DNA of 64,000 nt from the NCBI GenBank assembly GCA_947650365.1, contig CANTAL010000104.1, positions 62,001-126,000 on the forward strand, read 5' to 3'. Numbering within the stretch: position 1 is the stretch's first letter; each line of letters begins with the position of its first letter. The position numbers and the translations under genes are program-made. The notes under the pieces are model-generated. The model searched no databases, was not told the origin of the DNA, and saw only the letters and a list, made by a program, of their open reading frames with translations. This document shows, piece by piece, positions 1 through 64,000 of the stretch. This DNA comes from Chamaelirium japonicum. Lineage: Eukaryota; Streptophyta; Magnoliopsida; Liliales; Melanthiaceae.

Positions 1-500
1 CGTGCGAATGAATTAGAATGGATCATACGAATGAATTAGAATGGATATATTTGAACGAATAAATTAGAATGGATCATACGAATGAATTAGAATGGATCGT
101 ACGAATGAATTAGAATGGATAGTGCGAATGAATTAGAATCGATCGTACGAATGAATTAGAATGGATCGTACGAATGAATTAGAATGGATCATACGAATGA
201 GTAAGAATGGATCTTACGAATGAATTAGAATGGATCGTACGAATGAATTAGAATGGATCGTATGAATAAATTAGAATGGATACATTCATCCGAATGAATT
301 AGAATGGATCATACGAATGAGTGAGAATGGATCGTACGAATGAAATAGAATAGATTGTACGAATGAATTAGAATGGATCCTACGAATGAATTAGAATGGA
401 TCGTGTGAAAGAATTAGAATGGATTGTATGAATGAATTAGAATGGATCGTATGAATGAATTAGAATGGATCGTGCGAATGAATTCGAATGGATCGTACGA
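1..500 (+). repeat. Forward block 1
   Basis: Forward units with a GGATACATTCATCCG 28-mer near 277 and a GTGTGAAAG unit near 411. Ends at the recurrent switch GGATCGTACGAATT. Confidence 0.93.
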
Positions 501-1050
501 ATTTATTCTAATTCATTCATACAATCTATTCTAATTCTTTCACACGATCCATTCTAATTCATTTGTACGTTCCATTCTAATTCATTAGCATGATCCATGC
601 TAATTCATTCATTCGATCAATTCTAATTCATTAGCACGATCCATTCTAATTCATTCGTACGATCCATTCTAATTCATTCACACGATCCACTCTAATTCAT
701 TCATAGGATCCATTCTAATTCATTCATACGATCTATTCTAATTCTTTTGCACGAATGTATCCATTCTAATTCATTCGCACGAATGTATCCATTCTAATTC
801 ATTCGTACGATCCATTCTAATTCATTTGTACGATCCATTCTAATTCATTCGTACGATCCATTCTAATTCATTCATACGATCTATTCTAATTCATTCATAC
901 AATCCATTCTAATTCTTTCACACGATCCATTCTAATTCATTCGTACGATCCATTCTAATTAATTCGCACAATCCATTCTATTTCATTCGTACGATCCATT
1001 CTTACTCATTCGTATGATCCATTCTAATTCATTCGCACGAATGTATCCAT
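501..1050 (-). repeat. Reverse block 2
   Basis: Reverse units including TTAGCACGATCCATGC near 578 and 28-mers near 765 and 1035. Ends at TATCCAT joined to AATGGATCAT. Confidence 0.93.
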
Positions 1051-1219
1051 AATGGATCATACGAATGAGTAAGAATGGATCGCACGAATGAAATAGAATG
1101 GATTGTGCGAATAAATTAGAATGGACCGTACGAATGAATTAGACGTACGAATGAATTAAATGGATACATTCATGCGAATAAATTAGAATGGATCATACGA
1201 ATGAGTAAGAATGGATCGT
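1051..1219 (+). repeat. Forward block 3 with a truncated unit
   Basis: Contains the GAGTAAG/GAAATAG unit pair and a 17-bp unit at 1132-1148 (TTAGACGTAC, missing AATGGAT plus one base shift). The cassette recurs at 24187, 42114 and 50430. Confidence 0.92.
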
Positions 1220-3450: not shown

Positions 3451-4047
3451 CGAATGGATACATTCGTGTGAATGAATTAGAATGGATCGTACGAATGAGT
3501 AAGAATGGCTCGTACGAATGAAATAGAATGGATTGCACGAATGAATTAGAATGGATCGTACGAATGAATTAGAATGGATCGTGTGAAAGAATTAGAATGG
3601 ATTGTATGAATGAATTAGAATGGATCGTACGAAGGAATTAGAATGGATCGTACGAAGGAATTAGAATGGATCGTACGAATGAATTAGAATGGATCGTACG
3701 AATGAATTAGAATAGATCGTATGAATGAATTAGAATGGATCGTACGAAGCAATTAGAATGGATCGTACGAATGAATTAGAATGGATATATTCGTGCAAAT
3801 GAATTTGAATGGATCGTATGAATGTATTAGAATGGATCGTATGAGTGAATTAGAATGGATCGTACGAATGAATTAGAATGGATCGTATGAATGAATTAGA
3901 ATGGATCGTGCGAAAGAATTAGAATGCATTGTATGAATGAATTAGAATGGATCGTATGAATGAATTAGAATGGATCGTGCGAATGAATTCGAATGGATCG
4001 CATGATCCATTCGAATAGAATGGATCGTATGAATGAATTAGAATGGA
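3451..4047 (+). repeat. Forward block 5
   Basis: Begins at ATTCGTACGAATGG and includes the 28-mer GGATACATTCGTGTG, the rare GGCTCG unit, and the GTGCAAATG, GTATGAATGTATTAG, GTATGAGTG series from 3793. Contains hairpin copy 1. Confidence 0.93.
3987..4016 (+). repeat. 30-bp hairpin element, copy 1
   Basis: Perfect inverted repeat: arm ATTCGAATGGATC, loop GCAT, arm GATCCATTCGAAT. It replaces a normal forward unit with a 16-bp inverted piece (4001-4016) inside an otherwise forward block. It is followed by AGAATGGATCGTATG. Confidence 0.9.
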
Positions 4048-14421: not shown

Positions 14422-15157
14422 ATACGGAATGAATTAGAATGGATTGTATGAATGAATTAGAATGGATACATTCGTACGAATGAATTAGAATGGATCATAC
14501 GAATGAGTAAGAATGGATCGTACGAATAAAATAGAATGGATTGTACGAATGAATTAGAATGGATCGTACAAATGAATTAGAATGGATCGTACGAATGAAT
14601 TAGAATGGATCATACGAATGAGTAAGAATGGATCGTACAAATTAAATAGAATGGATTGTACGAATGAATTAGAATGGATCGTACGAATGAATTAGAATGG
14701 ATCGTGTGAAAGAATTAGAATGCATTATATGAATGAATTAGAATGGATCGTATGAATGAATTAGAATGGATCGTGCGAATGAATTCGAATGGATCGCATG
14801 ATCCATTCGAATAGAATGGATCGTATGAATGAATTAGAATGGATCGGGCGAATGAATTAGAATGGATTGTAGGAATGAATTAGAATGGATCGTATGAATG
14901 AATTAGAATAGATCGTGCGAATGAATTAGAATGGATCGTGCGAATGAATTAGAATGGATCGTACGAATGAATTAGAATGGATCGTACGAATGAATTAGAA
15001 TGGATCCTACGAATGAATTAGAATGGATCATACGAATGAGTAAGAATGGATCGTACGAATGAAATAGAATGGATTATACGAATGAATTAGAATGGATACA
15101 TTCATGCGAATGAATTAGAATGGATCGGACGATTGAATTAGAATGGATCGTACGATT
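14397..15157 (+). repeat. Forward block 15
   Basis: Two GAGTAAG/GAAATAG unit pairs, a 24-bp unit (CATACGGAATG near 14421), and hairpin copy 3. Ends at GTACGATTGATTC. Confidence 0.93.
14783..14812 (+). repeat. 30-bp hairpin element, copy 3
   Basis: Perfect 13-bp arms around GCAT, with the same downstream order of GTATG, GGGCG and GTAGG units. It lies in the forward block 14397-15157. Confidence 0.9.
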
Positions 15158-16530
15158 GATTCTAATTCATTCGTACGATCCATTCTAATACATTCGTACG
15201 ATTCATGCTAATTCATTCGCACGATCCATTCTAATTCATTCGTTCGAATATATCCATTCTAATTCATTCATACGATCCATTCTAATTCATTAATATGATC
15301 CATTCTAAGTCATTCGTACGATCGATTCTAATTCATTCGCACTATCCATTCTAACTCATTCGTACGATCCATTCTAATTCATTCGTATGATCCATTCTAA
15401 TTTATTCGTTCAAATATATCCATTCTAATTCATTCGTACGATCCATTCTAATTCATTCGCACGATCCATTCTAATTCATTCGCACGAATATATCCATTCT
15501 AATTCATTTGCACGATCCATTCTAATTCATTCCTATGATCTATTCTAATTCATTCGTACGATCCATTCTAATTTATTCGCTCGAATGTATCCATTCTAAT
15601 TCATTGGTACGATCCATTCTAATTCGTTTATATGATCCATTCTAATTCGTTCGTACGATCCATTCTAATTCGTTCGTACGATCCATTCTAATTCATTCGT
15701 ATGATCCATTCTAATTCATTCCTACGATCTATTCTAATTTATTCGCTCGAATATATCCATTCTAATTCATTCGTTCGATCCATTCTAATTCATTCGCACA
15801 ATCCATTCTAATTCATTCGTACGATCCATTCGTACGATCCATTCTAATTCATTCGTACGATCCATTCTAATTCATTCGTATGATTCATTCTAATTCATTC
15901 GTACGATCCATTCTAATTCATTCATACAATCCATTCTAATTCATTCGCACGAATGTATCCATTCTAATTAATTCGTACGATCCATTCTAATTCATTCGTA
16001 TGATCTATTCTTATTCATTCGCACGATCCAGTCTAATTGATTCGCACGATCCATTCTAATTCATTCGCACGAATGTATCCATTCTAATTTATTCGTACGA
16101 TCCATTCTAATTCATTAATATGATCCATTCTAATTCATTCGTACGATCCATTCTAATTCATATGCACAAAGGTATCCATTCTAATCCATTCGTAGGATCC
16201 ATTCTAATCCATTCGTACGATCCATTCTAATTCATTCGTACGATCCATTCTAATTCATTCGCTCGAATGTATCCATTCTAATCCATTCGTACGATCCATT
16301 CTAATCCATTCGTACGATCCATTCTAATTCATTCGCATGAATGTAACCATTCTAATTCAATCGTACGATCCATTCTAATTCATTCGTCCGATCCATTCTA
16401 ATTCATTCGCACGAATGTATCCATTCTAATTCATTCGTACGATCCATTCTAATTCATTCGTACGATCCATTCTAATTCATTCGTACGATCCATTCTAATT
16501 CATTCGTACGATCCATTCTAATTCATTCGG
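15122..16530 (+). repeat. Segmental duplication, source-like copy (1.4 kb)
   Basis: Matches 31094-32542 at offset 15972, starting at GGATCGGACGATTG, crossing the same F-to-R switch and the same rare R units (AGTCTAATTGATTCG, ATATGCACAAAGGTATCC). The other copy has one extra 23-bp unit near 32328 and a 1-bp loss near 31815, which explains the final offset of 15994. Confidence 0.85.
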
Positions 16531-17366
16531 ACGAATGTATCCATTCTAGTTCATTCATACGATCCATTCTAATTCATTCGCACGATCCATTCTAATTCAT
16601 TCGTACGATCCATTCTAATTCATTCATACGATCCATTCTAATTCATTCGTACGATCCATTCTAATTCATTCGCACAAATGAGTCCATTCTAATTTATTCG
16701 TACGATCCATTCTAATTCATTCGCACGATCCATTCTAATTCATTCATACGATCCATTCTAATTCTTTCACACGATCCATTCTAATTCATTCGTACGATCC
16801 ATTCTAATTCATTCGCACGATCCATTCTATTTCATTCGTATGATCCATTCTAATTCATTCATACGATCCATTCTAATTCATTCGTACGATCCATTCTAAT
16901 TCATTCGCACAAATGTATCCATTCTAATTCATTCGTACGATCCATTCTAATTCATTCGCACGATCCATTCTAATTCATTCGTACGATCCATTCTAATTCA
17001 TTCGCACGAATGTATCCATTCTAATTCATTCGTACATACGATCCATTCTAATTCATTCGCACGAATGTATCCATTCTAATTCATTTGTATAATCCATTCT
17101 ATTTCATTCGTACGATCCATTCTTACTCATTCGTATGATCCATTCTAATTCATTCACACGAATGTATCCATTCAAATTCATTCATACGATCCATTCTAAT
17201 TCATTCGCACAATCCATTCTATTTTATTCGTACGATCCATTCTTACTCATTCGTACGATCCATTCTAATTCCTTCATACGATCCATTCTATTTCATTCGT
17301 ATGATCCATTCTAATTCCTTCGTACGATCCATTCTAATTCCTTCGTATCCATTCTAATTCATTCAT
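15158..17366 (-). repeat. Reverse block 16
   Basis: 2.2 kb. The left part is duplicated at 31.1-32.5 kb; from about 16430 it belongs to higher-order copy 1. 28-mers near 16411 and 16531 are 120 bp apart. Confidence 0.94.
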
Positions 17367-17595
17367 ACGAATGAATTAGAATGGATCCTATGAATGAATT
17401 AGAATGGATCGTGCGAATGAATTAGAATGGATCGTACGAATGAATTAGAATGGATCGTGCTAATGAATTAGAATTGATCGAACAAATGAATTAGCATGGA
17501 TCGTGCTAATGAATTAGAATGGAACGTACGAATGAATTAGAATGGATCGTGTGAACGAATTAGAATGGATTGTATGAATGAATTAGAATGAATTC
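17367..17595 (+). repeat. Forward block 17
   Basis: Short forward island with the GTGCTAATG, CATGGATCGTGC cassette. Leaves through GAATTCGTACGATCC. Confidence 0.93.
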
Positions 17596-18536
17596 GTACG
17601 ATCCATTCGAATTCATTCGCACGATCCATTCTAATTCATTCATACGATCCATTCTAATTCATTCATACAATCCATTCTAATTCTTTCACACGATCCATTC
17701 TAATTCATTTGTAGGATCCATTCTAATTCATTCGTACAATCTATTCTATTTCAATCGTACGATCCATTCTTACTCATTCGTATGATCCATTCTAATTCAT
17801 TCGGACAAATGTATCCATTCTAATTTATTCGTACGATCCATTCTAATTCATTCGTACGATCGATTCTAATTCATTCGTACGATCCATTCTAATTCATTCG
17901 TCTGATCCATTCTAATTCATTCGCATGAATGTATCCATTCTAATTCATTCGTACGATCCATTCTAATTCATTCGTACGATCCATTCTAATCCATTCGTAC
18001 GATCCATTCTAATTCATTCGCACAAATGTATCCATTCTAATTCATTTGTACGATCCATTCTAATTCATTCGTACGATCCATTCTAATTCATTCGTACGAT
18101 CCATTCTAATTCATTCGTCCGATCCATTCTAATTCATTCGCACGAATGTATCCATTCTAATTCATTCGTACGATCCATTCTAATTCATTCGTACAATCTA
18201 TTCTATTTCAATCGTACGATCCATTCTTACTCATTCGTATGATCTATTCTAATTCATTCGGACAAATGTATCCATTCTAATTTATTCGTACGATCCATTC
18301 TAATTCATTCGTACGATCCATTCTAATTCATTCGTCCGATCCATTCTAATTCATTCGCACGAATGTATCCATTCTAATTCATTCGTACGATCCATTCTAA
18401 TTCATTCGTACGATCCATTCTAATTCATTCGTACGATCCATTCTAATTCATTCTAATTCATTCGTATGATCCATTCTACGATCCATTCTAATTTATTCGT
18501 ATATTCCATTCTAATTCATTAGCACGATCCATGCTA
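17596..18536 (-). repeat. Reverse block 18
   Basis: Ends with the compound string CCATTCTACGATCCATTC near 18471 and GCACGATCCATGC before a switch at CTAATGAATTAG. The same end is at 25.2, 36.4 and 43.2 kb. Confidence 0.93.
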
Positions 18537-20081
18537 ATGAATTAGAATGGATCGTATGAATGAATTAGAATGGATCGTGTGAAAGAATTAGAATGGATTG
18601 TATGAATGAATTAGAATGGATCGTATGAATGGATTAGAATGGATACATTCGTGCGAATGAATTAGAATGAATCGTGCGAATCAATTAGACTTGATCGTGC
18701 GAATGAATAAGAATAGATCATACGAATGAATTAGAATGGATCGTACGAATGAATTAGAATGAATTAGAATGGATCGTACGAATGAATTAGAATAGATCGT
18801 ACGAATGAATTAGAATGGATATATTCGTGCGAATGAATTAGAATGGATCGTGCGAATCAATTAGACTGGATCGTGCGAATGAATAAGAATAGATCATACG
18901 AATGAATTAGAATGGATCGTACGAATTAATTAGAATGGATACATTCGTGCGAATGAATTAGAATGGATTGTACGAATGAATTAGAATGGATCATACGAAT
19001 GAATTAGAATGGATCATACGAATTAATTAGAATGGATCATACGAATGAAGTAGAATGGATCGTACGAATGAATTAGAATGGATCATACGAATGAATTAGA
19101 ATGGATCGTGCGAATGAATTACAATGGATCGTACGAATGAATTAGAATGGATACATTTGTGCGAATGAATTAGAATGGATCGTACGAATGAATTAGAATG
19201 GATCGTATGAATGAATTAGAATGGACCGTACGAATGAATTAGAATGGATCTTGTGAATGAATTAGAATGGATCGTACGAATGAATTAGAATGGATCGTGT
19301 GAAAGAATTAGAATGGATTGTACGAATGAATTAGAATGGATCGTGCGAATGAATTAGAATGGATTGTATGAATGAAATAGAATAGATTTTGTGAATGAAT
19401 TAGAACTGATCGTACGAATGAATTAGAATGGATCGTACGAATGAATTAGAATGGATACATTTGTGCGAATGAATTAGAATGGATCGTACGAATGAATTAG
19501 AATGGATCGTATGAATGAAATAGAATGGATACATTCGTGCGAATGGATTAGAATGGATCGTGCGAATCCATTAGACTGGATCGTGCGAATGAATAAGAAT
19601 GGATCATACGAATGAATTAGAATGGATCGTACGAATTAATTAGAATGGATACATTCGTGCGAATGAATTAGAATGGATTGTATGAATGAATTAGAATGGA
19701 TCGTACGAATGAATTAGACTGGATCATACGAATGAATTAGAATGGATCGTACGAATGAATTAGAATGGATCGTACGAATGAACTAGAATGGATCGTACGA
19801 ATGAAATAGAATAGATTGTACGAATTAATTAGAATGGATTCGTACGAATGAATTAGAATGGATACATTCGTGCGAAAGAATTAGAATAGGTCGTATGAAT
19901 GAATTAGAATGGATCCTATGAATGAATTAGAATGGATCGTGCGAATGAATTAGAATGGATCGTACGAATGAATTAGAATGGATCGTCCTAATGAATTAGA
20001 ATTGATCGAACGAATGAATTAGAATGCATCGTACGAAAGAATTAGAATGGATATATTCGTGCGAATGAATTAGAATGAATC
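18537..20081 (+). repeat. Forward block 19
   Basis: Contains GAATCAATTAGAC and GAATCCATTAGAC units followed by GAATAAGAATAG, a linked series repeated in 26-28 kb and 36-46 kb. A direct GAATGAATTAGAAT duplication without core lies near 18754. Confidence 0.93.
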
Positions 20082-20867
20082 GCACGATCCATTCTAATTA
20101 ATTCATACGATCCATTCTAATTCATTCATACAATGCATTCTAATTCTTTCACATGATCCATTCTAATTCATTCGTACGATCCATTCTAATTCATTAATAT
20201 GATCCATTCTAATTTATTCGTACGATCCATTCTAATTCAAATGCACAAAGGTATCCATTCTAATCCATTCGTAGGATCCATTCTAATCCATTTGTATGAT
20301 CCATTCTAATTCATTCGTACGATCCATTCTAATTCATTCGCTCGAATGTATCTATTCTAATCCATTCGTACGATCCATTCTAATCCATTCGAACGATCCA
20401 TTCTAATCCATTCGTACGATCTATTCTAATCCATTCGTAGGATCCATTCTAATCCATTCGTACGATCCATTCTAATTCATTCGTACGATCCATTCTAATT
20501 CATTCGCTCGAATGTATCCATTCTAATCCATTTGTACGATCCATTCTAATCCATTCGTACGATCCATTCTAATTCATTCGCATGGATGTAACCATTCTAA
20601 TTCATTCATTTGATCCATTCTAATTCATTCGTATGATCCATTCTAATTCATTCGCACGATCCATTCTAATTCATTCATAGGATCCATTCTAATTCATTCG
20701 TACAATCCATTCTAATTCTTTTACACGATCCATTCTAATTCATTCGTACGATCCATTCTAATTCATTCATACAATCCATTCTAATTCATTCGTACGATCC
20801 ATTCTAATTCACTCATACGATCCATTCTAATACATTCATACGATCCATTCTAATTCATTTGCACGAA
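20082..20867 (-). repeat. Reverse block 20
   Basis: Carries ATGCACAAAGGTATCC near 20240 and a run of TAATCCATTCG units. Ends at GCACGAATAGATC. Confidence 0.93.
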
Positions 20868-22282
20868 TAGATCATACGAATGAATTAGAATGGATCGTAC
20901 GAATGAATTAGAATGGATCGTACGAATGAATTAGAATGGGTACATTCATGCGAATGAATTAGAATGGATCAGACGAATGAATTAGAATGGATCGTACGAA
21001 TGAATTAGAATGGATCGTACGAATGAATTAGAATGGATCATACGAATGAATTAGAATGGATCATACGAATGAGTAAGATGGATCGTACGATTGAAATAGA
21101 ATGGATTGTACGAATGAATTAGAATGGATACATTCGTGCGAATGAATTAGAATGGATCGTACGAATGAATTAGAATGGATCGTACGAATGAATTAGAATG
21201 GATATATTCGTGTGAATGAATTAGAATGGATCGTACGAATGAATTAGACTGGATCGTACGAATGAATTTGAATGGATACATTTGTGCGAATGAATCTAAA
21301 TGGATTGTATGAATGAATTACAATGGATCGTACGAATGAATTAGAATGGATCGTACGAATGAATTAGAATAGCTCATACGAATGAATTAGAATGAATCGT
21401 ATGAATGAATAAGAATGGTTACATTCGTGCGAATGAATTAGAATAGATCGTACGAATGAATTAGAATGGATCGTACGAATGAATTAGAATGGATCGCACG
21501 AATGAATTAGAATGGATCTTACGAATGAATTAGAATGGATCGTACGAATGAATTAGAATAGCTCATACGAATGAATTAGAATGAATCGTATGAATGAATT
21601 AGAATGGTTACATTCGTACGAATTAATTAGAATGGATCGTACGAAGGAATTAGAATGGATCGTACGAATGAATTAGAATGGATCGTATGAATGAATTAGA
21701 ATGGATCGTACGAATGAATTAGAATGGATCGTGCGAATGAATTAGAATGGATCGTACGAATGAATTAGAATGGATCATATTAATGAATTAGAATGGATCG
21801 TACGAATGAATTAGAATGGATCGTACGAATAAATTAGAATGGATACATTCGTCCGAATGAATTAGAATGGATCATACGAATGAGTAAGAATGGATCGTAC
21901 GAATGAAATAGAATAGATTGTACGAATGAATTAGAATGGATCCTACGAATGAATTAGAATAGATCGTGTGAAAGAATGTATCGTACAAATGAATTAGAAT
22001 GGATCGTACGAATGAGTAAGAATGGATCGTACGAATGAATTAGAATGGAATAGAATAGATTGTACGAATGAATTAGAATGGATCGTACGAATTAATTAGA
22101 ATGGATCGTACGAATGAATTAGAATGGATCGTACGAATGAATTAGAATGGATACATTTGTGCGAATGAATTAGAATGGATCGTACGAATGGATTAGAATG
22201 GATCGTACGAATGGATTAGAATGGATACATTCGTGCGAATGAATTAGAAAGGATTGTATGAATGAATTAGAATGGATCGTAC
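20868..22282 (+). repeat. Forward block 21
   Basis: Contains AATCTAAATGG at 21293, the ATAGCTCATACG unit twice, GGTTACATTCG 28-mers and a GAATGGAATAGAATAG compound near 22050. Confidence 0.93.
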
Positions 22283-22410
22283 AATTCATTCGAAGTCAAT
22301 CGCACGATCCATTCTAATTCATTCGTACGATCCATTCTAATTCATTCATACGATCCATTCTAATTCATTCGTACGATCCATTCTAATTCATTCGTATATT
22401 CCATTCTAAG
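22283..22410 (-). repeat. Reverse block 22
   Basis: 128-bp reverse island ending at CATTCTAAGATCCTACG. Counterparts are at 30874, 40186 and 48167. Confidence 0.92.
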
Positions 22411-22891
22411 ATCCTACGAATGAATTAGAATGGATCGTACAAATGAATTAAAATGGATCGTACGAATGAATTAGAATGGATCGTGCGAATGAATTAGAAT
22501 GGATACATTCGTGCGAATGAATTAGAATGGATCGGACGAATGAATTAGAATGGATCGTACGAATGAATTATAATGGATCAAATGAATGAATTAGAATGGT
22601 TACATTCATGCGAATGAATTAGAATGGATCGTATGAATGGATTAGAATGGATCGTACAAATGAACTAGAATGGATACATTCGTGCGAATGAATTAGAATG
22701 GATCGTACGAATGAATTAGAATGGATCGTACGAATGAATTAGAATGGATTTTACGAATGAATTTGAATGGATCGTACGAATGAATTAGAATGGATCGTAC
22801 GAATGAATTAGAATGGATACATTCGTGCGAATGAATTAGAATGGATCGGACGAATGAATTAGAATGGATCGTACGAATGAATTAGAATGGA
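22411..22891 (+). repeat. Forward block 23
   Basis: Forward units with GGATCAAATGAATG followed by GGTTACATTCATGCG, a common linked pair. Ends in the 38-bp palindrome. Confidence 0.93.
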
Positions 22892-22910
22892 TCCATTCTA
22901 ATTCATTCGT
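22873..22910. repeat. 38-bp perfect palindrome at an F-to-R switch
   Basis: Arms of 19 bp meet inside GGATCC at 22891/22892. The switch preserves unit phase. Confidence 0.92.
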
Positions 22911-23630: not shown

Positions 23631-23772
23631 AGATCATATGAATGAATTAGAATGGATCGTACGAATGAATTAGAATAGATCGTGCGAATGAATTAGAATG
23701 GATCGTACGAATGGATTGTATGAATGAATTAGAATGGATCGTACGAATGAATTAGAATGGATCGTACGAAGG
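23631..23772 (+). repeat. Forward block 25
   Basis: Short forward island ending at GAAGGAATTCTAATTC, a switch on GAATTC rather than on the usual dyads. Confidence 0.92.
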
Positions 23773-40795: not shown

Positions 40796-40814
40796 TCCAT
40801 TCTAATTCATTCGT
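40777..40814. repeat. 38-bp perfect palindrome, duplicate
   Basis: Copy of the palindrome at 22873 in higher-order copy 2, offset 17904, still perfect. Confidence 0.92.
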
Positions 40815-41534: not shown

Positions 41535-41677
41535 AGATCGTATGAATGAATTAGAATGGATCGTACGAATGAATTAGAATCGATCGTGCGAATGAATTAG
41601 AATGGATCGTACGAATGGATTATATGAATGAATTAGAATGGATCGTACGAATGAATTAGAATGGATCGTACGAAGGA
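41535..41677 (+). repeat. Forward block 47
   Basis: Copy of 23631-23772, again leaving through GGAATTCTAATTC. Confidence 0.92.
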
Positions 41678-42113
41678 ATTCTAATTCATTCGCACGAATG
41701 TATCCATTCTAATTCATTCATACGATCCATTCTAATTCATTCGTACGATCTATTCTAATTCATTCATAGGCTCCATTCTAATTCATTCATACGATCTATT
41801 CTAATTCTTTCGCACGAATGTATCCATTTTAATTCATTCGCACGAATGTATCCATTCTAATTCATTCGTACGATCCATTCTAATTCATTCATACGATCCA
41901 TTCTAATTCATTCGTACGATCCATTCTAATTCATTCATACGATCTATTCTAATTCATTCATACAATCCATTCTAATTCTTTCACACGATCCATTCTAATT
42001 CATTCGTACGATCCATTCTAATTCAATCGCACAATCCATTCTATTTCATTCGTACGATCTATTCTTACTCATTCGTATAATCCATTCTAATTCATTCGCA
42101 CGAATGTATCCAA
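41678..42113 (-). repeat. Reverse block 48
   Basis: Copy of 23773-24186 with one additional 23-bp unit, restoring offset 17927. Confidence 0.93.
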
Positions 42114-42283
42114 AATGGATCATACGAATGAGTAAGAATGGATCGTACGAATGAAATAGAATGGATTGTGCGAATGAATTAGAATGGACCGTACAAATGA
42201 ATTAGACGTACGAATGAATTAGAATGGATACATTCGTGCGAATAAATTAGAATGGATCATACGAATGAGTAAGAATGGATCGT
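42114..42283 (+). repeat. Forward block 49 with a truncated unit
   Basis: Copy of 24187-24355; the short unit reads TTAGACGTACG here, so the CpG is intact. Confidence 0.92.
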
Positions 42284-43225
42284 CATTCTAATTCATTCGT
42301 ATGATCCATTCTAATTCATTTGTATCCATTCTATTTCATTCGCACGATCCATTCTAATTCATTCGCGCAATCTATTCTAATTCATTCTTACGATCCATTC
42401 TAATTCATTCGTACGATCCATTCTAATCCATTCATACAATCCATTCTAATTTATTCGCACGAATGTATCCATTCTAATTCATTCGTACGATCCATTCTAA
42501 TTCATTCGCACAATCTATTCTAATTCATTCATACGATCCATTCGAATTCATTCGCACGATCCATTCTAATTCATTCATGCGATCCATTCTAATTCATTCA
42601 TACAATCCATTCTAATTCTTTCACACGATCCATTCTAATTCATTCATAGGATCCATTATAATTCATTCGTACAATCTATTCTATTTCATTCGAACGATCC
42701 ATTCTTACTCATTCGTATAATCCATTCTAATTCATTCGGAGGAATGTATCCATTCTAATTTATTCGTACGATCAATTCTAATTCATTCGTACGATCCATT
42801 CTAATTCATTCGTACGATCCATTCTTACTCATTCCTATGATCCATTCTAATTCATTCGTACGATCCATTCTAATTCATTCGTACGATCGATTCTAATTCA
42901 TTCGCACTATCCATTCTAATTCATTCGTACGATCCATTCTAAGTCATTCGTATGATCCATTCTAATTTATTCGTTCAAATATATCTATTCTAATTCATTC
43001 GTACGATCCATTCTAATTCATTCGCACGATCCATTCTAATTCATTCGCACGAATGTATCCATTCTAATTCATTTGCACGATCCATTCTAATTCATTCCTA
43101 TGATCTATTCTAATTCATTCGTACGATCCATTCTAATTCATTCTAATTCATTGTTACGATCCATTCTACGATCCATTCTAATTCATTCGTATATTCCATT
43201 CTAATTCATTAGCACGATCCATGCT
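42284..43225 (-). repeat. Reverse block 50
   Basis: Copy of 24356-25297, with the same GCGCAATC, TTGTATCC and TTCAAATATATC variants. Confidence 0.93.
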
Positions 43226-43247
43226 AATGAATTAGAATGGATCGTAC
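43226..43247 (+). repeat. Single forward unit, duplicate
   Basis: Copy of the lone forward unit at 25298-25319. Confidence 0.9.
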
Positions 43248-43476
43248 GATCCAATCTAATTCATTCATATGATCCATTATTACTCATTCGTATGATCCAT
43301 TCTAATTCAATCGTACGATCCATTCTAATTCATTCGTACGATCCATTCTAATTCCTTCGTACGATCCATTCTAATTCATTCATACGATCCATTCTAATTC
43401 ATTCGTACGATCCATTGTAATTCCTTCGTACGATCCATTCTAATTCATTCGTACAATCTATTCTAATTCATTCGTA
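43248..43476 (-). repeat. Reverse block 52
   Basis: Copy of 25320-25549. Confidence 0.92.
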
Positions 43477-46400
43477 CGAATAGATACATTCGTGTGAATT
43501 AATTAGTATGGATCGTACGAATGAGTAAGAATGGATCGTACAAATGAAATAGAATGGATTGCACGAATGAATTAGAATTGATCATACGAATGAATTAGAA
43601 TGGATCGTGCGAATGAATTAGAATGGATCGTACGAATGAATTAGAATGAATCGTACGAATGAACTAGAATGGATACATTCGTGCGAATGAATTAGAATGG
43701 ATAGTACGAATGAATTAGAATGGATCGTACGAATGAATTAGAATGGATCTTACGAATGAATTAGAATGGATCGTACGAATGAATTAGAATGGATCGTTCG
43801 AATAAATTAGAATGGATACATTGTGCGAATGAATTAGAATGGACCGTACGAATGAATTAGAATGGATCGTATGAATGAATTAGAATGGATACATTCGTGC
43901 GAATGAATTAAAATGGATCGGACGAATAAATTAGAATGGATCGTACGAATGAATTAGAATGGATCGTATGAATGAATTATAATGGATCGTACGAATGAAT
44001 TAGAATGGATCGTGCGAATGAATTTGAATGGATCGTACGAATGAATTAGAATGGATCGTGTGAAAGAATTAGAATTGATCGTACGAATGAATTAGAATGG
44101 ATCGTGCAAATGAATTAGAATGGATCGTATGAATGAATTAGAATGGATCGTACGAATGAATTAGAATGGATACATTTGTGCGAATGAATTAGAATGGATC
44201 GTACGAATGAATTAGAATGGATCGTATGAATGAATTAGAATGGATACATTCGTGCGAATGAATTAAAATGGATCGTGCGAATCCATTAGACTGGATCGTG
44301 CGAATGAATAAGAATGGATCATACGAATGAATTAGAATGGATCGTACGAATTAATTAGAATGGATACATTCGTGCGAATGAATAAGAATGGATTGTATGA
44401 ATGAATTAGAATGGATCGTACGAATGAATTAGAATGGATCATACGAATTAATTAGAATGGATCATACGAATGAATTAGAATGGATCGTACGAATGAATTA
44501 GAATGGATCGTACGAATGAACTAGAATGGATCGTACGAATGAAATAGAATAGATTGTACGAATGAATTAGAATGGATTCGTACGAATGAATTAGAATGGA
44601 TACATTCGTGCGAATGAATTAGAATGGATACATTCGTGCGAAAGAATTAGAATAGATCGTATGAATGAATTAGAATGGATCCTATGAATGAATTAGAATG
44701 GATCGTGCGAATGAATTAGAATGGATCGTACGAATGAATTAGAATGGATTGTGCTAATGAATTAGAATTGATCGAACGAATGAATTAGCATGGATCGTGC
44801 TAATGAATTAGAATGGATCATACGAATGAATTAGAATGGATCAAATGAATGAATTAGAATGGTTACATTCATGCGAATGAATTAAAATGGATCGTACGAA
44901 TGGATTAGAATGGATCATACGAATGGATTAGAATGGATACATTCGAGCGAATGAATTAGAATGGATCGTACGGAATGAATTAGAATGGATTGTATGAATG
45001 AATTAGAATGGATACATTCGTGCGAATGAATTAGAATGGATCGTGCGAATGAATTAGAATGGATTCGTACGAATGAATTAGAATGGATACATTCGTGCGA
45101 ATGAATTAGAATGGATCGTACCAATGAGTAAGAATGGATCGTACGAATGAAATAGAATGGATCGTACGAATGAATTAGAATGGATCGTACGGAATGAATT
45201 AGAATGGATTGTATGAATGAATTAGAATGGATCGTACGAATGAATTAGAATGGATCATACAAATTAATTAGAATGGATCATACGAATGAATTAGAATGGA
45301 TTGTACGAATGAATTAGAATGGATCGTACGAATGAATTAGAATGGATCGTGCGAATGAATTAGAATGGATCGTACGAATGAATTAGAATGGATCGTACGA
45401 ATAAATTAGAATGGATCGGACGAATGAATTAGAATGGATCGTACGAATGAATTAGAATGGATCAAATGAATGAATTAGAATGGATCGTACGAATAAATTA
45501 GAATGCATCGTACGAAAGAATTAGAATGGATATATTCGTGCGAATGAATTAGAATGGATCGTATGAAAGAATTAGAATGGATTGTACGAATGAATTTGAA
45601 TGGATACATTTGTGCGAATGAATCTAAATGGATTGTATGAATGAATTAGAATAGATCGTACGAATGAATTAGAATGGATCATACGAATTAATTAGAATGG
45701 ATCGTACGAATGAATTAGAATGGTTACATTCGTGCGAATGAATTAGAATGGATCGTACGAATGAATTAGAATGGATATATTCGTGCAAATGAATTAGAAT
45801 GGATCGTACGAATGAATTAGAATGGATCATAAGAATTAATTAGAATGGATCATACGAATGAATAAGAATGGATCGTACGAATGAATTAGAATGGATCGTA
45901 CGAATGAATTAGAATGGATCGTGTGAATGAATTAGAATGGATCGTACGAATGAATTAGAATGGATACATTTGTGCGAATGAATTAGAATGGATCGTACGA
46001 ATGAATTAGAATGGATCGTATGAATGAATTAGAATGGATCGTACGAATGAATTAGAATTGATCGTGCGAATGAATTAGAATGGATCGTACGAATGAATTA
46101 GAATGGATCGTGTGAAAGAATTAGAATGGATCGTACGAATGAAGTAGAATGGATCGTGCGAATGAATTAGAATGGATCGTATGACTGAATTAGAATAGAT
46201 TTTGTGAATGAATTAGAACTGATCGTACGAATGAATTAGAATGGATCGTACAAATGAATTAGAATGGATCGTACGAATGAATTATAATGGATCGTATGAA
46301 TGAATTAGAATGGATACATTCGTGCGAATGAATTAGAATGGATCGTGCGAATCCATTAGACTGGATCGTGCGAATGAATAAGAATGGATCATACGAATGA

Positions 46401-46620
46401 ATTAGAATGGATCGTACGAATTAATTAGAATGGATACATTCGTGCGAATGAATTAGAATGGATTGTATGAATGAATTAGAATGGATCGTACGAATGAATT
46501 AGAATGGATCATACGAATTAATTAGAATGGATCATACGAATAAATTAGAATGGATCGTACGAATGAATTAGAATGGATCGTATGAATGAACTAGAATGGA
46601 TCGTAAGAATGAAGTAGAAT
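43477..46620 (+). repeat. Forward block 53
   Basis: Copy of 25550-28693, 3.1 kb. It ends early at GAAGTAGAAT, where the 613-bp deletion joins it to reverse units. Confidence 0.94.
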
Positions 46621-46924
46621 CCATTCTAATTCATTCGCATGAATGTAACCATTCTAATTCATTCACTTGATCCATTCTAATTCATTCGTACGATCTATTC
46701 TAATTCATTCGCACGATCCATTCTAATTCATTCATAGGATCCATTCTAATTCATTCGTACAATCCATTCTAATTCTTTCACACGATCCATTCTAATTCAT
46801 TCGTATGATCCATTCTAATTCATTCATACAATCCATTCTAATTCATTTGTATGATCCATTCTAATTCACTCATACGATCCATTCTAATACATTCATACGA
46901 TCCATTCTAATTCATTTGCACGAA
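46621..46924 (-). repeat. Reverse block 54
   Basis: Copy of 29307-29610 only; the left part of the counterpart block is deleted. Ends GCACGAATAGATC. Confidence 0.93.
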
Positions 46925-48166
46925 TAGATCGTATGAATGTTTTAGAATGGATCGTACGAATGAATTAGAATGGATCGTACGAATGAATTCGAATGGATAC
47001 ATTCGTGCGAATGAATTAGAATGGATCGGACGAATGAATTAGAATGGATCGTACGAATGAAATAGAATGGATTGAAATAGAATGGATTGTACGAATGAAT
47101 TAGAATGGATACATTCGTGCGAATGAATTAGAATGGATCGTACGAATGAATTAGAATGGATCGTACGAATGAATTAGAATGCATCGTATGAAAGAATTAG
47201 AATGGATATATTCGTGCGAATGAATTAGAGTGGATCGTACGAATGAATTAGACTGGATCGTACGAATGAATTTGAATGGATACATTTGTGCGAATGAATC
47301 TAAATGGATTGTATGAATAAATTACAATGGATCGTACGAATGAATTAGAATGGATCGTACGAATGAATTAGAATAGCTCATACGAATGAATTAGAATGAA
47401 TTGTATGAATGAATTAGAATGGTTACATTCGTGCGAATGAATTAGAATAGATCATACGAATGAATTAGAATGGATTGTACGAATGAATTAGAATGGATCG
47501 TACGAATGAATTAGAATGGATCTTACGAATGAATTAGAATGGATCGTATGAATGAATTAGAATAGCTCATACGAATGAATTAGAATGAATCGTATGAATG
47601 AATTAGAATGGTTACATTCGTACGAATGAATTAGAATGGATCGTACGAAGGAATTAGAATGGATCGTACGAATGAATTAGAATGGATCGTATGAATGAAT
47701 TAGAATGGATCGTATGAATGAATTAGAATGGATCGTGCGAATGAATTAGAATGGATCGTACGAATGAATTAGAATGGATCGTACGAATGAATTAGAATGG
47801 ATCGTACGAATGAAATAGAATAGATTGTACGAATGAATTAGAATGGATCCTACGAATGAATTAGAATAGATCGTGTGAAAGAATGTATCATACGAATGAA
47901 TTAGAATGGATCGTACGAATGAATTAGAATGGAATAGAATAGATTGTACGAATGAATTAGAATGGATCGTACGAATTAATTAGAATGGATCGTACGAATG
48001 AATTAGAATGGATCGTTCGAATGAATTAGAATGGATACATTTGTGCAAATGAATTAGAATGGATCGTACGAATGGATTAGAATGGATCGTACGAATGGAT
48101 TAGAATGGATACATTTGTGCGAATGAATTAGAATGGATTGTATGAATGAATTAGAATGGATCGTAC
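46925..48166 (+). repeat. Forward block 55
   Basis: Copy of 29611-30873, including the GGATTGAAATAG partial duplication near 47071. Confidence 0.93.
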
Positions 48167-48295
48167 GATCCATTCGAATTCATTCGCACGATCCATTCTA
48201 ATTCATACGTACGATCCATTCTAATTCATTCATACGATCCATTCTAATTCATTCGTACGATCCATTCTAATTCATTCGTATATTCCATTATAAGA
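48167..48295 (-). repeat. Reverse block 56
   Basis: Copy of 30874-31002, ending CATTATAAGATCCTACG. Confidence 0.92.
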
Positions 48296-49239
48296 TCCTA
48301 CGAATGAATTAGAATGGATCGTACGAATGAATTAGAATGGATCATACGAAGGAATTAGAATGGATCGTGCAAATGAATTAGAATGGATACATTCGTGCGA
48401 ATGAATTAGAATGGATCGGACGAATGAATTAGAATGGATCGTACGAATGAATTAGAATGGATCAAATGAATGAATTAGAATGGTTACATTCATGCGAATG
48501 AATTAGAATGGATCGTACGAATGGATTAGAATGGATCGTACGAATGAACTGGAATGGATACATTCGTGCGAATGAAATAGAATGGATCGTACGAATGAAT
48601 TAGAATGGATCGTACGAATGAATTAGAATGGATCTTACGAGTAAATTAGAATGGATCGTACGAATGAATTAGAATGGATCATACGAATGAATTAGAATGG
48701 ATACATTCGTGCGAATGAATTAGAATGGATCGGACGAATGAATTAGAATGGATCGTACGAATGAATTAGAATGGATCAAATGAATGAATTAGAATGGTTA
48801 CATTCATGCGAATGAATTAGAATGGATCGTACGAATGGATTAGAATGGATCGTATGAATGGATTAGAATGGATACATTCGAGCGAATGAATTAGAATGGA
48901 TCGTACGAATGAATTAGAATGGATCGTTCGAATGGATTAGAATGGATACATTTAAGTGAATGAATTAGAATGGATCGTACGAATGAATTAGAATGGATCA
49001 TACGAATAAATTAGAATAGATACATTCGTCCGAATGAATTAGAATGGATCATACGAATGAGTAAGAAAGGATCATACGAATAAAATAGAATAGATTGTAC
49101 GAATGAATTAGAATGGATCCTATGAATGAATTAGAATGGATCGTGTGAAAGAATTACAATGGATTGTATGAATGAATTAGAATGGATTGTATGAATGAAT
49201 TAGAATGGATCGTGCGAATGAATTCGAATGGATCATACG
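48296..49239 (+). repeat. Forward block 57
   Basis: The first ~100 bp are the end of higher-order copy 2. The rest has two GGATCAAATG/GGTTACATTC pairs and ends at the fourth 500-type switch. Confidence 0.93.
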
Positions 49240-50429
49240 AATTCATTCTAATTCATTCATACAATCCGTTCTAATTCTTTCACACGATCCATTCTAATTC
49301 ATTCGTACGTTCCATTCTAATTCATTAGCACGATCCATGCTACTTCATTCGTTCGATCAATTCTAATTCATTAGCACGATCCATTCTAATTCATTCGTAC
49401 GATCCATTCTAATTCATTCGCACGATCCATTCTAATTCATTCATAGGATCCATTCTAATTCATTCATACGATCTATTCTAATTCTTTCGCACGAATGTAT
49501 CCATTCTAATTCATTCGCACAAATATATCCATTCTAATTCATTCGTACGATCCATTCTAATTCATTCGCACAAATATATCCATTCTAATTCATTCGTACG
49601 ATCCATTCTAATTCATTCGCACGATCCATTCGAATTTATTCGTACGATCCATTCTAATTCTTTCACACGATCTATTCTAATCCATTCTAATTCATTCGTA
49701 CGAATCCATTCTAATTCATTCGTACAATCTATTCTATTTCATTCGTACGATCCATTCTTACTCATTCGTATGATCCATTCTAATTCATTCGGACGAATGT
49801 ATCCATTCTAATTCATTCGTACGATCCATTCTAATTCATTCGCTCGAATGTATCCATTCTAATCCATTCGTACGATCAATTCTAATCCATTCGTACGATC
49901 CATTCTAATTCATTTGCATGAATGTAACCATTCTAATTCATTCATTTGATCCATTCTAATTCATTCGTACGATCCATTATAATTCATTAGCACGATCCAT
50001 GCTAATTCATTCGTTCGATCAATTCTAATTCATTCGTACGATCCATTCTAATTCATTCGCACGATCCATTCTAATTCATTCATAGGATCCATTCTAATTC
50101 ATTCATACGATCTATTCTAATTCTTTCGCACGAATGTATCCAATCTAATTCATTCGCACGAATGTATCCATTCTAATTCATTCGTACGATGCATTCTAAT
50201 TCATTCGTACAATCCATTCTAATTCATTCGTACGATCCATTCTAATTCATTCATACGATCTATTTTAATTCATTCATACAATCCATTCTAATTCTTTCAC
50301 ACGATCCATTCTAATTCATTCGTACGATCCATTCTAATTCATTCGCACAATCCATTCTATTTCATTCGTACGATCCATTCTTACTCATTCGTATGATCCA
50401 TTCTAATTCATTCGCACGAATGTATCCAT
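49240..50429 (-). repeat. Reverse block 58
   Basis: Reverse units related to 501-1050 but longer, with two TTAGCACGATCCATGC sites at 49326 and 49987. Confidence 0.93.
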
Positions 50430-50599
50430 AATGGATCATACGAATGAGTAAGAATGGATCGTACGAATGAAATAGAATGGATTGTGTGAATGAATTAGAA
50501 TGGACCGTACGAATGAATTAGACGTACGAATGAATTAGAATGGATACATTCGTGCGAATAAATTAGAATGGATCATACGAATGAGTAAGAATAGATCGT
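50430..50599 (+). repeat. Forward block 59 with a truncated unit
   Basis: Fourth copy of the 1051-type cassette, with TTAGACGTACG near 50518. Confidence 0.92.
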
Positions 50600-51026
50600 C
50601 ATTCTAATTCATTCGTATGATCCATTCTAATTCATTTGTATCCATTCTATTTCATTCGCACGATCCATTCTAATTCATTCGCGCAATCTATTCTAATTCA
50701 TTTGTACGATCCATTCTAATTCATTCAGACGATCCATTCTAATTCATTCATAAAATCCATTCTAATTTATTCGCACGAATGTATCCATTCTAATTCATTC
50801 GTACGATCCATTCTAATTCATTCGCACAAGCTATTCTAATTCATTCATACGATCCATTCTAATTCATTCGCACGAATGTATCCATTCTAATTCATTCATA
50901 CGATCCATTCTACTTCATTCGTACTATCCGTTCTAATAAACTCATACGATCCATTCTAATTCATTCATACGATCCATTCTAATTCATTTGCACGAATATA
51001 TCCATTCTAATTCATTCGTACGATCC
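50600..51026 (-). repeat. Reverse block 60
   Basis: Copy of 1220-1643; ends abruptly at GATCC joined to TGAATTAG. Confidence 0.93.
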
Positions 51027-51372
51027 TGAATTAGAATGGATCGTACGAATGAATTAGAATGGATACCTTTGTGCATATGAATTAGAATGGATCGTACGAA
51101 TGAATTAGAATGGATCATATTAATGAATTAGAATGGATCGTACGAATGAATTAGAATGGATACATTCGTGCGAATGAATTAGAATGGATCGTATGAATGA
51201 ATTAGAATAGATTTTGTGAATGAATTAGAACTGATCGTACGAATGAATTAGAATGGATACATTCATGCGAATGAATTAGAATAGATTGCGCGAACAAATT
51301 AGAATGGATCGTGCGAATGAAATAGAATGGATACAAATGAATTAGAATGGATCATGCGAATGAATTAGAATG
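51027..51372 (+). repeat. Forward block 61
   Basis: Starts with a truncated unit. Has the CCTTTGTGCATATG unit at 51066 and GATTTTGTGAATG near 51212, and ends at AGAATGACGATCC. Confidence 0.92.
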
Positions 51373-51542
51373 ACGATCCATTCTTACTCATTCGTATGAT
51401 CCATTCTAATTTATTCGCACGAATGTATCCATTCTAATTCATTCGTACGTCTAATTCATTCGTACGGTCCATTCTAATTCATTCGTACAATCCATTCTAT
51501 TTCATTCGTACGATCCATTCTTACTCATTCGTATGATCCATT
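51373..51542 (-). repeat. Reverse block 62
   Basis: Short reverse island containing a truncated unit (TTCGTACGTCTAATTC near 51443), the reverse-strand equivalent of the 17-bp form. Ends CCATTATGGATAC. Confidence 0.92.
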
Positions 51543-52840
51543 ATGGATACATTCGTGCGAATGAATTAGAATGGATCATACGAATGAGTAAGAATGGATC
51601 ATACGAATGAAATAGAATGGATTGTGCGAATGAATTAGAATGGATCGTACGAATGAATTAGAATGGATCGTGTGAAAGAATTAGAATGGATTGTATGAAT
51701 GAATTAGAATAGATCATATGAATGAATTAGAATGGATCGTATGAATGAATTAGAATGGATCGTACGAATGAATTAGAATGGATCGTACGAATGAATTAGA
51801 ATGGATACATTCGCGAATGAATTAGAATGGATCGTACGAATGAATTAGAATGGATCGTACGAAAGAATTAGAATGGATCTTACAAATGAATTCGAATGGA
51901 TCGTACGAATGAATTAGAATGGATCGTACAAATGAATTAGAATGGATACATTTGTGCGAATGAATTAGAATAGATCGTACGAATGAATTAGAATGGATCG
52001 TATGAATGAATTAGAATGGATCGTACGAATGAATTAGAATGGATCGTACGAAGGATTTAGAATGGATCGTGCAAATGAATTAGAATGGATCGTGCGAATG
52101 AATTAGAATGGATCGTATGAATGAATTAGAATAGATTATGCGAATGAATTAGAATGGATCGTACGAATGAATTAGAATGGATCGTGCGAATGAATTAGAA
52201 TGGATCGGACGAATGAATTAGAATGGATCGTACGAATGAATTAGAATGGATCGTACAAATGAATTAGAATAGATCGTACGAATGAATTAGAATGGATCGT
52301 ACGAAGGAATTAGAATGGATCGTACGAATGAATTAGACTGGATCGTACAAATGAATTTGAATGGATACATTTGTGCGAATGAATCTAAATGGATTGTATG
52401 AATGAATTACAATGGATCGTACGAATGAATTAGAATGGATCGTACGAATGAATTAGAATAGCTCATACGAATGAATTAGAATGAATCGTATGAATGAATT
52501 AGAATGGTTACATTCGTGCGAATGAATAAGAATAGATCGTACGAATGAATTAGAATGGATCATACGAATAAATTAGAATGGATCGTGGGAATGAATTAGA
52601 ATGGATCGTACGAATGAATTAGAATGGATCCACCGAATGAGTTAGAATGGATCATACGAATGAATTAGAATGGATTGTACGAATGAATTAGAATGGATTG
52701 TGAGAATGAATTAGAATGGATTGTATGAATAAATAAGAATGGATCGTACGAATGAATTAGAATGGATCGTGCGAATGAATTAGCATGAATCGTACGAATG
52801 TATTAGAATAGATCGTACGAATGAATTAGAATGAATCGTA
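51543..52840 (+). repeat. Forward block 63
   Basis: Forward units with AATCTAAATGG near 52383 and ATAGCTCATACG near 52459. The right third (52600-52840) is richer in unusual cores (CCACCG, GTGAG, GTGGG). Confidence 0.93.
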
Positions 52841-60501: not shown

Positions 60502-61921
60502 GTACGATCCATTCGAATTCATTCGCACGATCCATTCTAATTCATTCATACGATCCATTCTAATTCATTCATACAATCCATTCTAATTCTTTCACACGAT
60601 CCATTCTAATTCATTCGTAGGATCCATTCTAATTCATTCGTCCAATCTATTCTATTTCATTCGTACGATCCATTCCTACTCATTCGTATGATCCATTCTA
60701 ATTCATTCGAACGAATGTATCCATTCTAATTTATTCGTACGATCCATTCTAATTCATTCGTACGATCCATTCTAATTCATTCGTCCGATCCATTCTAATT
60801 CATTCGCACAAATGTATCCATTCTAATTCATTCATACGACCCATTCTAATTCATTCGTATGATCCATTCTAATTCATTCGTAAGATCCATTCTAATTCAT
60901 TCGTACGATCCATTCTAATTTATTCGTATGATCCATTCTAATTCATTCGCACGAATGTATCCATTCTAATCCATTCGTACGATCTATTCTAATTCATTCG
61001 CATGAATGTAACCATTCTAATTCATTCATTTGATCCATTCTAATTCATTCGTACGATCCATTCTAATTTATTAGCACGATCCATGCTAATTCATTCGTTC
61101 GATCAATTCTAATTCATTAGCACGATCCATTCTAATTCATTCGTACGATCCATACTAATTCATTCGCACGATCCATTCTAATTCATTCATAGGATCCATT
61201 CTAATTCATTCATACGATCTATTCTAATTCTTTCGCACGAATGTATCCATTCTAATTCATTCGCATGAATGTATCTATTCTAATTCATTCGTACGATCCA
61301 TTCTAATTCATTCGCACGATCCATTCTAATTCATTCGTACGATCAATTCTAATTCATTCGCACGAATGTATTCATTCTAATTCATTCGTACGACCCATTC
61401 TAATTCATACATAGGATCCATTCTAATTCATTCATACAATCCATTCTAATTCATTTGCACGAATGTATCCATTCTAATTCATTCGTACGATCAGTTCTAA
61501 TTCATTCACAAAATCTATTCTAATTCATTCATACGATCCATTCTAATTCATTCACACGAATGTATCCATTCTAATTCATTCATACGATCCATTCTAATTC
61601 ATTCGTACGATCCATTCTAATTCCTTCGTACGATCCATTCTAATTCATTCGTATGATCTATTCTAATTCATTCGTACGATCCATTCTAATTCATTCGTAC
61701 GATCCATTCTAATTCCTTCGTACGATCCATTCTAATTCATTCGTACGATCCATTCTAATTCATTCATACAATCCATTCTAATTCTTTCACACGATCCATT
61801 CTAATTCATTCGTACGATCCATTCTAATTCATTCGTGCAATCCATTCTATTTCATTCGTACGATCCATTCTTACTCATTCGTACGATCCATTCTAATTCA
61901 TTCACACGAATTTATCCATTC
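60502..61921 (-). repeat. Reverse block 72
   Basis: Shares its left 230 bp with the block at 56003. TTAGCACGATCCATGC recurs near 61071. Confidence 0.93.
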
Positions 61922-63733
61922 GTACGAATGAATTAGAATAGATTGTACAAATGAATTAGAATGGATCGTACGAAGGAATTAGAATGGATCGTACGAAGGA
62001 ATTAGAATGGATCGTACGAAGGAATTAGAATGGATCGTTTGAATGAATTAGAATGTATATATTCGTGCAAATGAATTAGAATGGATCATACGAATGAGTA
62101 AGAATGGATCGTACGAATGAAATACGTACGAATGAATTAGAATAGATTTTGTGAATGAATTAGAACTGATCGTACGAATGTATTAGAATGGATACATTCG
62201 TGCGAATGAATTAGAATGGATTGTATGAATGAATTAGAATGGATCCTATGAATGAATTAGAATGGATCGTACGAATGAATTAGAATGGATACATTCGTGC
62301 GAATGAATTAGAATTGATCGTACGAATGAATTAGAATGGATCGTACGAATGAAATAGAATGGATTGCACGAATGAATTAGAATGGATCGTACGAATGAAT
62401 TAGAATGGATCGTGTGAAAGAATTAGAATGGATTGTATGAATGAATTAGAATGGATCGTACGAATGAATTAGAATGGATCGTACGAAGGAATTAGAATGG
62501 ATCGTACGAAGGAATTAGAATGGATCATACGAATGAATTAGAATGGATCGTACGAATGAATTAGAATGGATCGTGCGAATGAATTAGAATGGATCGTACG
62601 ACTGAATTAGAATGGATCAAATGAATGAATTAGAATGGTTACATTCATGCGAATGAATTAGAATGGATCGTACGAATGAATTAGAATGGATCGTACGAAT
62701 GGATTAGAATGGATACATTCGAGCGAATGAATTAGAATGGATCGTACGAATGAATTAGAATGGATCGTACGAATGGATTAGAATGGATCCTACGAATGGA
62801 TTAGAATGGATACCTTTGTGCATATGAATTAGAATGGATCGTACGAATGAATTAGAATGGATCATATTAATGAATTAGAATGGATCGTACGAATGAATTA
62901 GAATGGATCATGTGAAAGAATTAGAATGCATTGTATGAATGAATTAGAATGGATCATATGAATGAATTAGAATGGATCGTGCGAATGAATTCGAATGGAT
63001 CGCATGATCCATTCGAATAGAATGGATCGTATGAATGAATTAGAATGGATCGGGCGAATGAATTAGAATGGATTGTAGGAATGAATTAGAATGGATCGTA
63101 TGAATGAATTAGAATGGATCGTACGAATGAATTAGAATGGATCGTACGAATGAATTAGAATGGATCGTACGAATGAATTAGAATGGATCATACGAATGAG
63201 TAAGAATGGATCGTACGAATGAAATAGAATGGATTGTACAAATGAATTAGAATGGATACATTCGTGCGAATGAATTAGAATGGATCGTACGAATGAATTA
63301 GAATGGATCGTACGAATGAATTAGAATGCATCATACGAAAGAATTAGAATGGATATATTCGTGCGAATGAATTAAAATGGATCGTACGAATGAATTGGAC
63401 TGGATCGTACGAATGAATTTGAATGGATACATTTGTGCGAATGAATCTAAATGGATTGTATGAATGAATTACAATGGATCGTACGAATGAATTAGAATGT
63501 TTCGTACGAATGAATTAGAATAGATCAAATGAATGAATTAGAATGGTTACATTCATGCGAATGAATTAGAATGGATCGTACGAATGGATTAGAATGGATC
63601 GTATGAGTGAATTAGAATGGATACGAAGGAATTAGAATGGATCGTACGAAGGAATTAGAATGGATCATACGAATGAAATAGAATGGATCGTACGAAGTAA
63701 TTAGAATGGATCGTACGAAGGAATTAGAATGCA
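61922..63733 (+). repeat. Forward block 73
   Basis: Includes the CCTTTGTGCATATG unit at 62813, hairpin copy 5, and AATCTAAATGG near 63446. Several GAAGGAATTAG units lie at the right end. Confidence 0.94.
62989..63018 (+). repeat. 30-bp hairpin element, copy 5
   Basis: Perfect 13-bp arms around GCAT, followed by the same GTATG, GGGCG, GTAGG unit series as copies 2 and 3. Confidence 0.9.
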
Positions 63734-64000
63734 TTCGTATGATCCATTCTAATTAATTCGGATGAATGTATCCATTCTAATTTATTCGTACGATCCATTC
63801 TAATTCATTCGTACGATCCATTCTAATTCATTCGTACAATTCATTCTTACTCATTCGTATGATCCATTATAATTCATTCGTACGATCCATTCTAATTCAT
63901 TCGAACGAATGTATCCATTCCATTCGTACGATCCATTCATACGATCCATTCTAATTCATTCATACAATCCATTCTAATTCTTTCACACGATCCATTCTAA
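63734..64000 (-). repeat. Reverse block 74, cut by window end
   Basis: Reverse units with a rearranged short stretch near 63913 (ATTCCATTCGTACG). It runs off the window end still in the array. Confidence 0.92.

Follow-up and report, generated by a model that had tools for sequence, protein, structure and literature searches.

Recurring strand-switch junctions in a Chio-type centromeric satellite array point to possible orientation-blind homogenisation

Chio1/Chio2 is the CENH3-associated centromeric satellite of the holocentric plant Chionographis japonica. Chio1 differs from Chio2 by five missing base pairs and one substitution, and a conserved 8-bp dyad forms a hairpin between adjacent monomers (PMC10264360). 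Mixing of forward and reverse repeats in Chio arrays is already in print (PMC10264360, PMC12722358); the orientation of Chio alternates frequently, whereas the arrays of Chamaelirium luteum are consistently oriented, and TTCGTACGA is common to Chio and this sister-genus satellite (PMC12722358). A higher-order cluster of Chio is mentioned as well (PMC10264360).

Here we analysed a stretch of 64,000 bp (hereafter, the window), in which an earlier note had described a short repeat that keeps reversing its direction. The premise of that note, that such alternation is unexpected, has been overtaken by the work on the Chio satellite (PMC10264360, PMC12722358), and the alternation that we describe confirms what was published on this unusual holocentromere with its few, very large satellite units. 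A literature search made up mostly of titles and listings, supplements aside, brought up no junction-level study of Chio that we recognised; with the alternation itself already known, we regard the census of junctions presented here as a modest addition.

The satellite unit and its identity

We modelled the 23-bp unit with a cyclic profile HMM that covers both strands and whose emissions were re-estimated on the window itself. It assigned every base to a 23-bp unit or to a short insertion, making the whole 64,000 bp a single uninterrupted satellite. The longest insertion run anywhere in the window was 5 bp, in keeping with the earlier statement that no foreign sequence lies between the blocks, and 389 of the 427 runs had exactly this length. 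Of the units, 2,615 could be cut out whole, a count that leaves out partial units at block ends. The dominant length was 23 bp (2,145 units) and the second 28 bp (376 units), matching the monomer sizes of Chio1 and Chio2, with 94 units of other lengths (10-27 bp among the 91 listed). The number of 5-bp insertion runs is close to that of the 28-bp units, and alignment of the 28- and 23-bp consensuses placed exactly one 5-bp indel and one substitution between them.

The 9-mer TTCGTACGA occurs 978 times in the window, 437 times on the plus strand and 541 times as its complement. When a consensus dimer of the 23-bp (Chio1-type) unit was folded as DNA, the 8-bp TCGTACGA paired with its own copy in the neighbouring unit, giving -6.8 kcal/mol; the Chio2-type dimer folded at -11.9 kcal/mol, and 0 of 200 shuffles reached these energies in either case. 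In the 28-bp unit, the additional 5 bp give rise to a near-palindrome around TTCGTGCGAA, to which we attribute the stronger folding of the 28-bp dimers.

Based on these descriptors and the 9-mer, rather than on a match of the full monomer, the array is very probably the CENH3-associated Chio1 (23 bp) and Chio2 (28 bp) satellite of Chionographis japonica, named Chamaelirium japonicum in the NCBI taxonomy, or of a very close relative; occupancy by CENH3 would carry over from the published work. The window contained no Rfam match at gathering score, no tRNA and no ORF of at least 150 aa in the bacterial code, and we rejected coding or RNA content at these thresholds. Stretches of the consensus had no exact matches in genome_contigs (stretches of 43 and 28 bases) or in viral_contigs (39 and 28 bases), and the first 4,000 bases of the window had no blastn match in plasmids or phages; on these searches, in collections that may lack the window's own genome, a prokaryotic, phage or plasmid origin was also rejected.

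Alternating blocks and recurring junctions

Annotating the strand of each unit with the profile and then counting the switches, as the earlier note had proposed, divided the window into 80 blocks of alternating orientation separated by 79 switches, which bears out the roughly 73 reversals that it had reported. The count was 83, 79, 71, 67 and 67 at switch priors of 1e-2, 1e-3, 1e-4, 1e-6 and 1e-8, respectively. The same HMM called no switch in any of four control arrays of one orientation only, namely three shuffled arrays of the window's units, each of 61,708 bp, and a version of the window in which all blocks had been turned to plus. These results supersede a first k-mer count of 144 pieces, in which single 9-mers flipped the label. 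Block lengths ranged from 14 to 3,438 bp, in agreement with the range of one unit to 3.4 kb given earlier, and plus blocks covered 34,682 of the 64,000 bases; 73 of the 80 blocks were at least 100 bp long, with a mean of 0.87 kb, and seven were shorter than 40 bp. The array and some of its features are as follows.

1..64000, unstranded: Chio1/Chio2-type satellite array of 80 alternating blocks (HMM and unit cutting).
25551..28988, plus strand: longest block of one orientation, 3,438 bp (HMM).
1051..1219, plus strand: short inverted block with two junction types travelling together at its ends (HMM and junction clustering); repeated at 24186-24356, 42113-42283 and 50430-50599 and, inverted, at 51373-51542.
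3998..4016, minus strand: 19-bp inverted block (HMM and junction clustering); repeated at 14794-14812 and 63000-63018 and, inverted and 14 bp long, at 53156-53169.
50159..51813, unstranded: macro-dyad with 551-bp arms (50159-50709 and 51263-51813) that are 97% complementary and 553 bp apart.

The flipped fragment of 14-19 bp, held between two switches and present four times, once inverted, suggests that even inversions of this small size take part in the copying.

We then clustered the 60 bases around each switch, ungapped and with both orientations compared. At 85% identity the 79 switches fell into 18 junction types (13 at 0.75, 17 at 0.80 and 22 at 0.90). Sixteen of the types are multi-copy and, among these, 10 are found in both orientations. 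The ungapped version was used in place of an earlier single-linkage clustering on local scores, which gave 19 types and lumped different registers. The 79 switches are therefore not 79 independent events but about 18 junction types. The largest type, with 13 copies, is near-palindromic and hence has weak orientation calls, and it is counted among the 10 two-orientation types. As a hint of saturation, 16 of the 18 types are found among the first 39 switches (up to position 31131) and the other 40 add two, a count inflated by the 16-18-kb duplication described below. Four of the junctions are listed here.

504, unstranded: plus-to-minus junction type present in 10 copies, four of them one way (504, 7225, 11501 and 49244) and six the opposite way (13967, 17591, 35421, 56000, 60497 and 63732, the last being a weaker member, single in the earlier clustering).
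3452, unstranded: minus-to-plus junction type with nine copies in both orientations; 3452, 4419, 9237, 25551 and 43478 one way, 53711, 57087, 58916 and 61922 the opposite way.
14395, unstranded: minus-to-plus junction at a natural palindrome, perfect, with 25-bp arms, single copy.
22893, unstranded: plus-to-minus junction at a GATC palindrome with 19-bp arms; junctions of this type also lie at 40797 (arms of 19 bp) and 4049 (arms of 17 bp).

The likeness between junctions of one type was not confined to the switch. With pairs at the 17.0-18.2-kb duplication spacing excluded, the flanks at 50-150 bp had an identity of 0.869 between same-orientation copies (100 pairs) and 0.870 between opposite ones (105 pairs), compared to 0.769 between different types (241-254 flanks per bin, compared without register matching). 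The corresponding values were 0.817, 0.814 and 0.734 at 150-300 bp, and 0.747, 0.756 and 0.719 at 500-800 bp. Within the first 50 bp, same-type identity was about 0.90 outside the duplication spacing and 0.973 at it, and 18 further same-orientation pairs at this spacing, kept apart, reached 0.963 at 50-150 bp. Since flank likeness fades towards background over several hundred bases regardless of orientation, the switches appear to have been copied with pieces of a few hundred bases that were flipped as readily as not. Of the processes named in the earlier note, duplication of junctions is well supported, in that 77 of the 79 switches belong to the 16 multi-copy types and within-type homology extends beyond the junction, and repeated inversion fits with the 10 of 16 multi-copy types found in both orientations.

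Block duplication and a shared pool of variants

On a larger scale, the satellite harbors a tandem segmental duplication with a spacing of about 16-18 kb, an identity of up to 97.7% and indels.

15026..31097, unstranded: first copy of the duplication, carrying its own orientation switches (20 inside the copy).
31003..48388, unstranded: second copy of the duplication.

The matches between the copies are 17598-28693 with 35520-46620 (97.7%), 15776-18453 with 33573-36260 (94.0%), 29309-31097 with 46623-48388 (95.0%) and 15026-16534 with 31003-32528 (96.5%), and 22 junction pairs in the same orientation lie 15.7-18.4 kb apart. This duplication could be a large higher-order repeat; that it represents joined haplotypes is less likely.

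To compare the two orientations as sources of variants, we searched for the best match of each ten-unit segment, leaving out matches less than 1 kb or 15.7-18.4 kb away. Mean identity was 0.947 for matches in the same orientation and 0.944 for those in the opposite one (n=2,005 segments), the opposite match being the better in 45% of the segments and the same-orientation match in 51%; permuting the block labels gave a difference as large in 12.5% of 200 trials. With the duplication spacing kept in, the best match more than 300 bp away was opposite-oriented in only 32% of the segments. Separate forward and reverse subfamilies were not seen, plus and minus blocks sharing variants almost equally.

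Identity between neighbouring units (0.828) was no higher than between any two units (0.834), on which we rejected unit-by-unit local slippage as the main mode of growth and take the array to have grown by multi-unit blocks. That neighbours differ as much as distant units do is contrary to what is seen in arrays made by single-unit slippage.

How the junctions may have arisen and spread

Recent fold-back, or template switching at hairpins, predicts junction arms that are mirror images of one another. The two arms of a junction were compared over 115 bp in the 66 of 79 switches whose arms were both long enough (13 were dropped). Their identity had a median of 0.80 and a maximum of 0.887, compared to a median of 0.817 and a 95th percentile of 0.887 in 600 random opposite-strand pairs, placing junction arms slightly below random opposite-strand pieces (Mann-Whitney p = 0.0005). 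On this result we rejected fold-back chimeras and recent palindromic duplication as a general explanation of the switches.

The same comparison bears on whether the switches are artefacts, made by fold-back chimeric reads or misjoined contigs. We took the switch positions from the assembly and assumed the HiFi assembly of the region to be correct; satellite arrays can misassemble, and the window is a product of hifiasm if it comes from the published assembly (PMC10264360). Chimeras, however, predict near-identical arms, and none of the 66 arm pairs exceeded 0.887. Moreover, the same junctions recur in differently diverged copies and in both orientations, the published HiFi libraries have mean lengths of 14-26 kb (PMC10264360), so that at a mean block of 0.87 kb (blocks of at least 100 bp) one read would span many switches, and alternation is reported for Chionographis japonica next to consistent orientation in Chamaelirium luteum (PMC12722358). 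We therefore consider an artefact highly improbable.

Another possibility is that hairpins of TCGTACGA and of Chio2 stall replication forks, with the strand folding back to produce a new inverted copy at a palindrome each time. The strong folds of both consensus dimers agree with this, and the authors of the Chio work propose hairpins, breakage and ectopic recombination for the spread of the repeats (PMC12722358). At 9 of the 79 switches the centre is a perfect palindrome whose arms measure 8-25 bp, as against 0 of 860 random points away from junctions. Likewise, 5 of the 18 types lie at the register of the unit's own palindromes (CGTACG, GATC, AATT), where 2.3 were expected, and 11 lie within one base of it, where about 7.0 were expected; the former enrichment, however, is not significant (p = 0.075). 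As shown above, mirror identity between the arms does not exceed that of random pieces from opposite strands, and breakpoint sides fell in TCGTACGA at the chance rate (13 of 36, 12.5 expected), on which a preference for breakage there was rejected. As an account of the switches in general, hairpin fold-back is thus unlikely. The interpretation given in the earlier note is accordingly supported in part: it holds for junction duplication and fits for inversion, and the hairpin-mediated rearrangement that it names as an alternative is not the general rule. In view of the nine palindromic centres, hairpins may have given rise to a minority of the joins. Old fold-backs that have since diverged could likewise explain the low arm identity. 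We concluded that most junction types are ordinary illegitimate joins, with a minority that may have been palindrome-assisted, and infer that the joins predate the copying by which they spread.

The model that we favour, and hold to be probable, is that a few old illegitimate joins were followed by orientation-blind recombination and block duplication. The window would then come from within a centromere unit of a holocentric plant, and its alternating orientation would be a fossil record. A few old joins (about 18 types here) would have linked opposite strands, most of them at points without a palindrome and a minority at short palindromes of the unit itself. With inverted blocks in place, pieces of several units, facing either way, could be copied, moved and flipped through recombination or template switching among homologous segments. 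Such orientation-blind copying would multiply junctions in both directions and keep plus and minus blocks in one variant pool, and the larger tandem duplications (16-18 kb) would then have copied stretches with about 20 switches together.

More broadly, we tentatively propose, as a reading that is plausible though somewhat short of probable, that homogenisation in this satellite is orientation-blind: ancient strand-switch junctions, a small set that is close to saturation, undergo copying and flipping by recombination across the array, and forward and reverse repeats form one gene pool. Junctions are perhaps copied across the roughly 100 centromere units too. If this proposal is true, junction types could serve as pedigree markers for the spread of holocentromere units, since most switches here seem to be copied from a restricted number of joins and each join would be a heritable marker. 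How centromere units spread between chromosomes is an unsolved question according to the authors of the Chio work (PMC12722358); a map of the junction types across every centromere unit would tell whether the units spread by block copying between chromosomes, and would separate ectopic recombination from hairpin-driven inversion.

The switches might instead be kept by selection, with macro-dyads helping centromere chromatin. The 551-bp-arm dyad at 50159-51813 and the published association of the Chio satellite with CENH3 (PMC10264360) are compatible with this idea, and in Tribolium, conserved inversion sites and macro-dyads led the authors to propose a structural role (PMC13081366). Yet the centromere satellite of the sister genus is consistently oriented (PMC12722358), showing that alternation is not required for centromere function in the tribe, and the block lengths of the window vary widely, from 14 to 3,438 bp. 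We regard selection of this kind as distinctly unlikely and retain the model of old joins spread by orientation-blind copying.

Among the known systems, Chio1/Chio2 (PMC10264360) shares with the window the 23- and 28-bp units, the 5-bp indel and substitution, the 8-bp dyad hairpin, TTCGTACGA and the mixed orientation, with TCGTACGA presumably equivalent to the published 8-mer. The covered passages of that paper do not describe single junctions; the recurring types and the orientation-blind similarity come from the present analysis. The Chama satellite of Chamaelirium luteum is likewise centromeric, belongs to the sister genus and has TTCGTACGA, but its monomer is 60 bp long and its arrays are consistently oriented and homogeneous over hundreds of kb (PMC12722358). 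In organisation, to which the comparison is confined, the nearest structural parallel that we found is Tribolium madens, whose TmSat1 and TmSat2 arrays change orientation at a few recurrent, conserved inversion sites (PMC13081366). There, monomers of 225 and 704 bp form mostly two subarrays per array, with three inversion types and 98-99% similarity within a type (PMC13081366), whereas the window, rather than two long inverted subarrays, holds 80 blocks of 14-3,438 bp in one array, irregular and averaging less than 1 kb, with junctions that recur as about 18 types in 64 kb.
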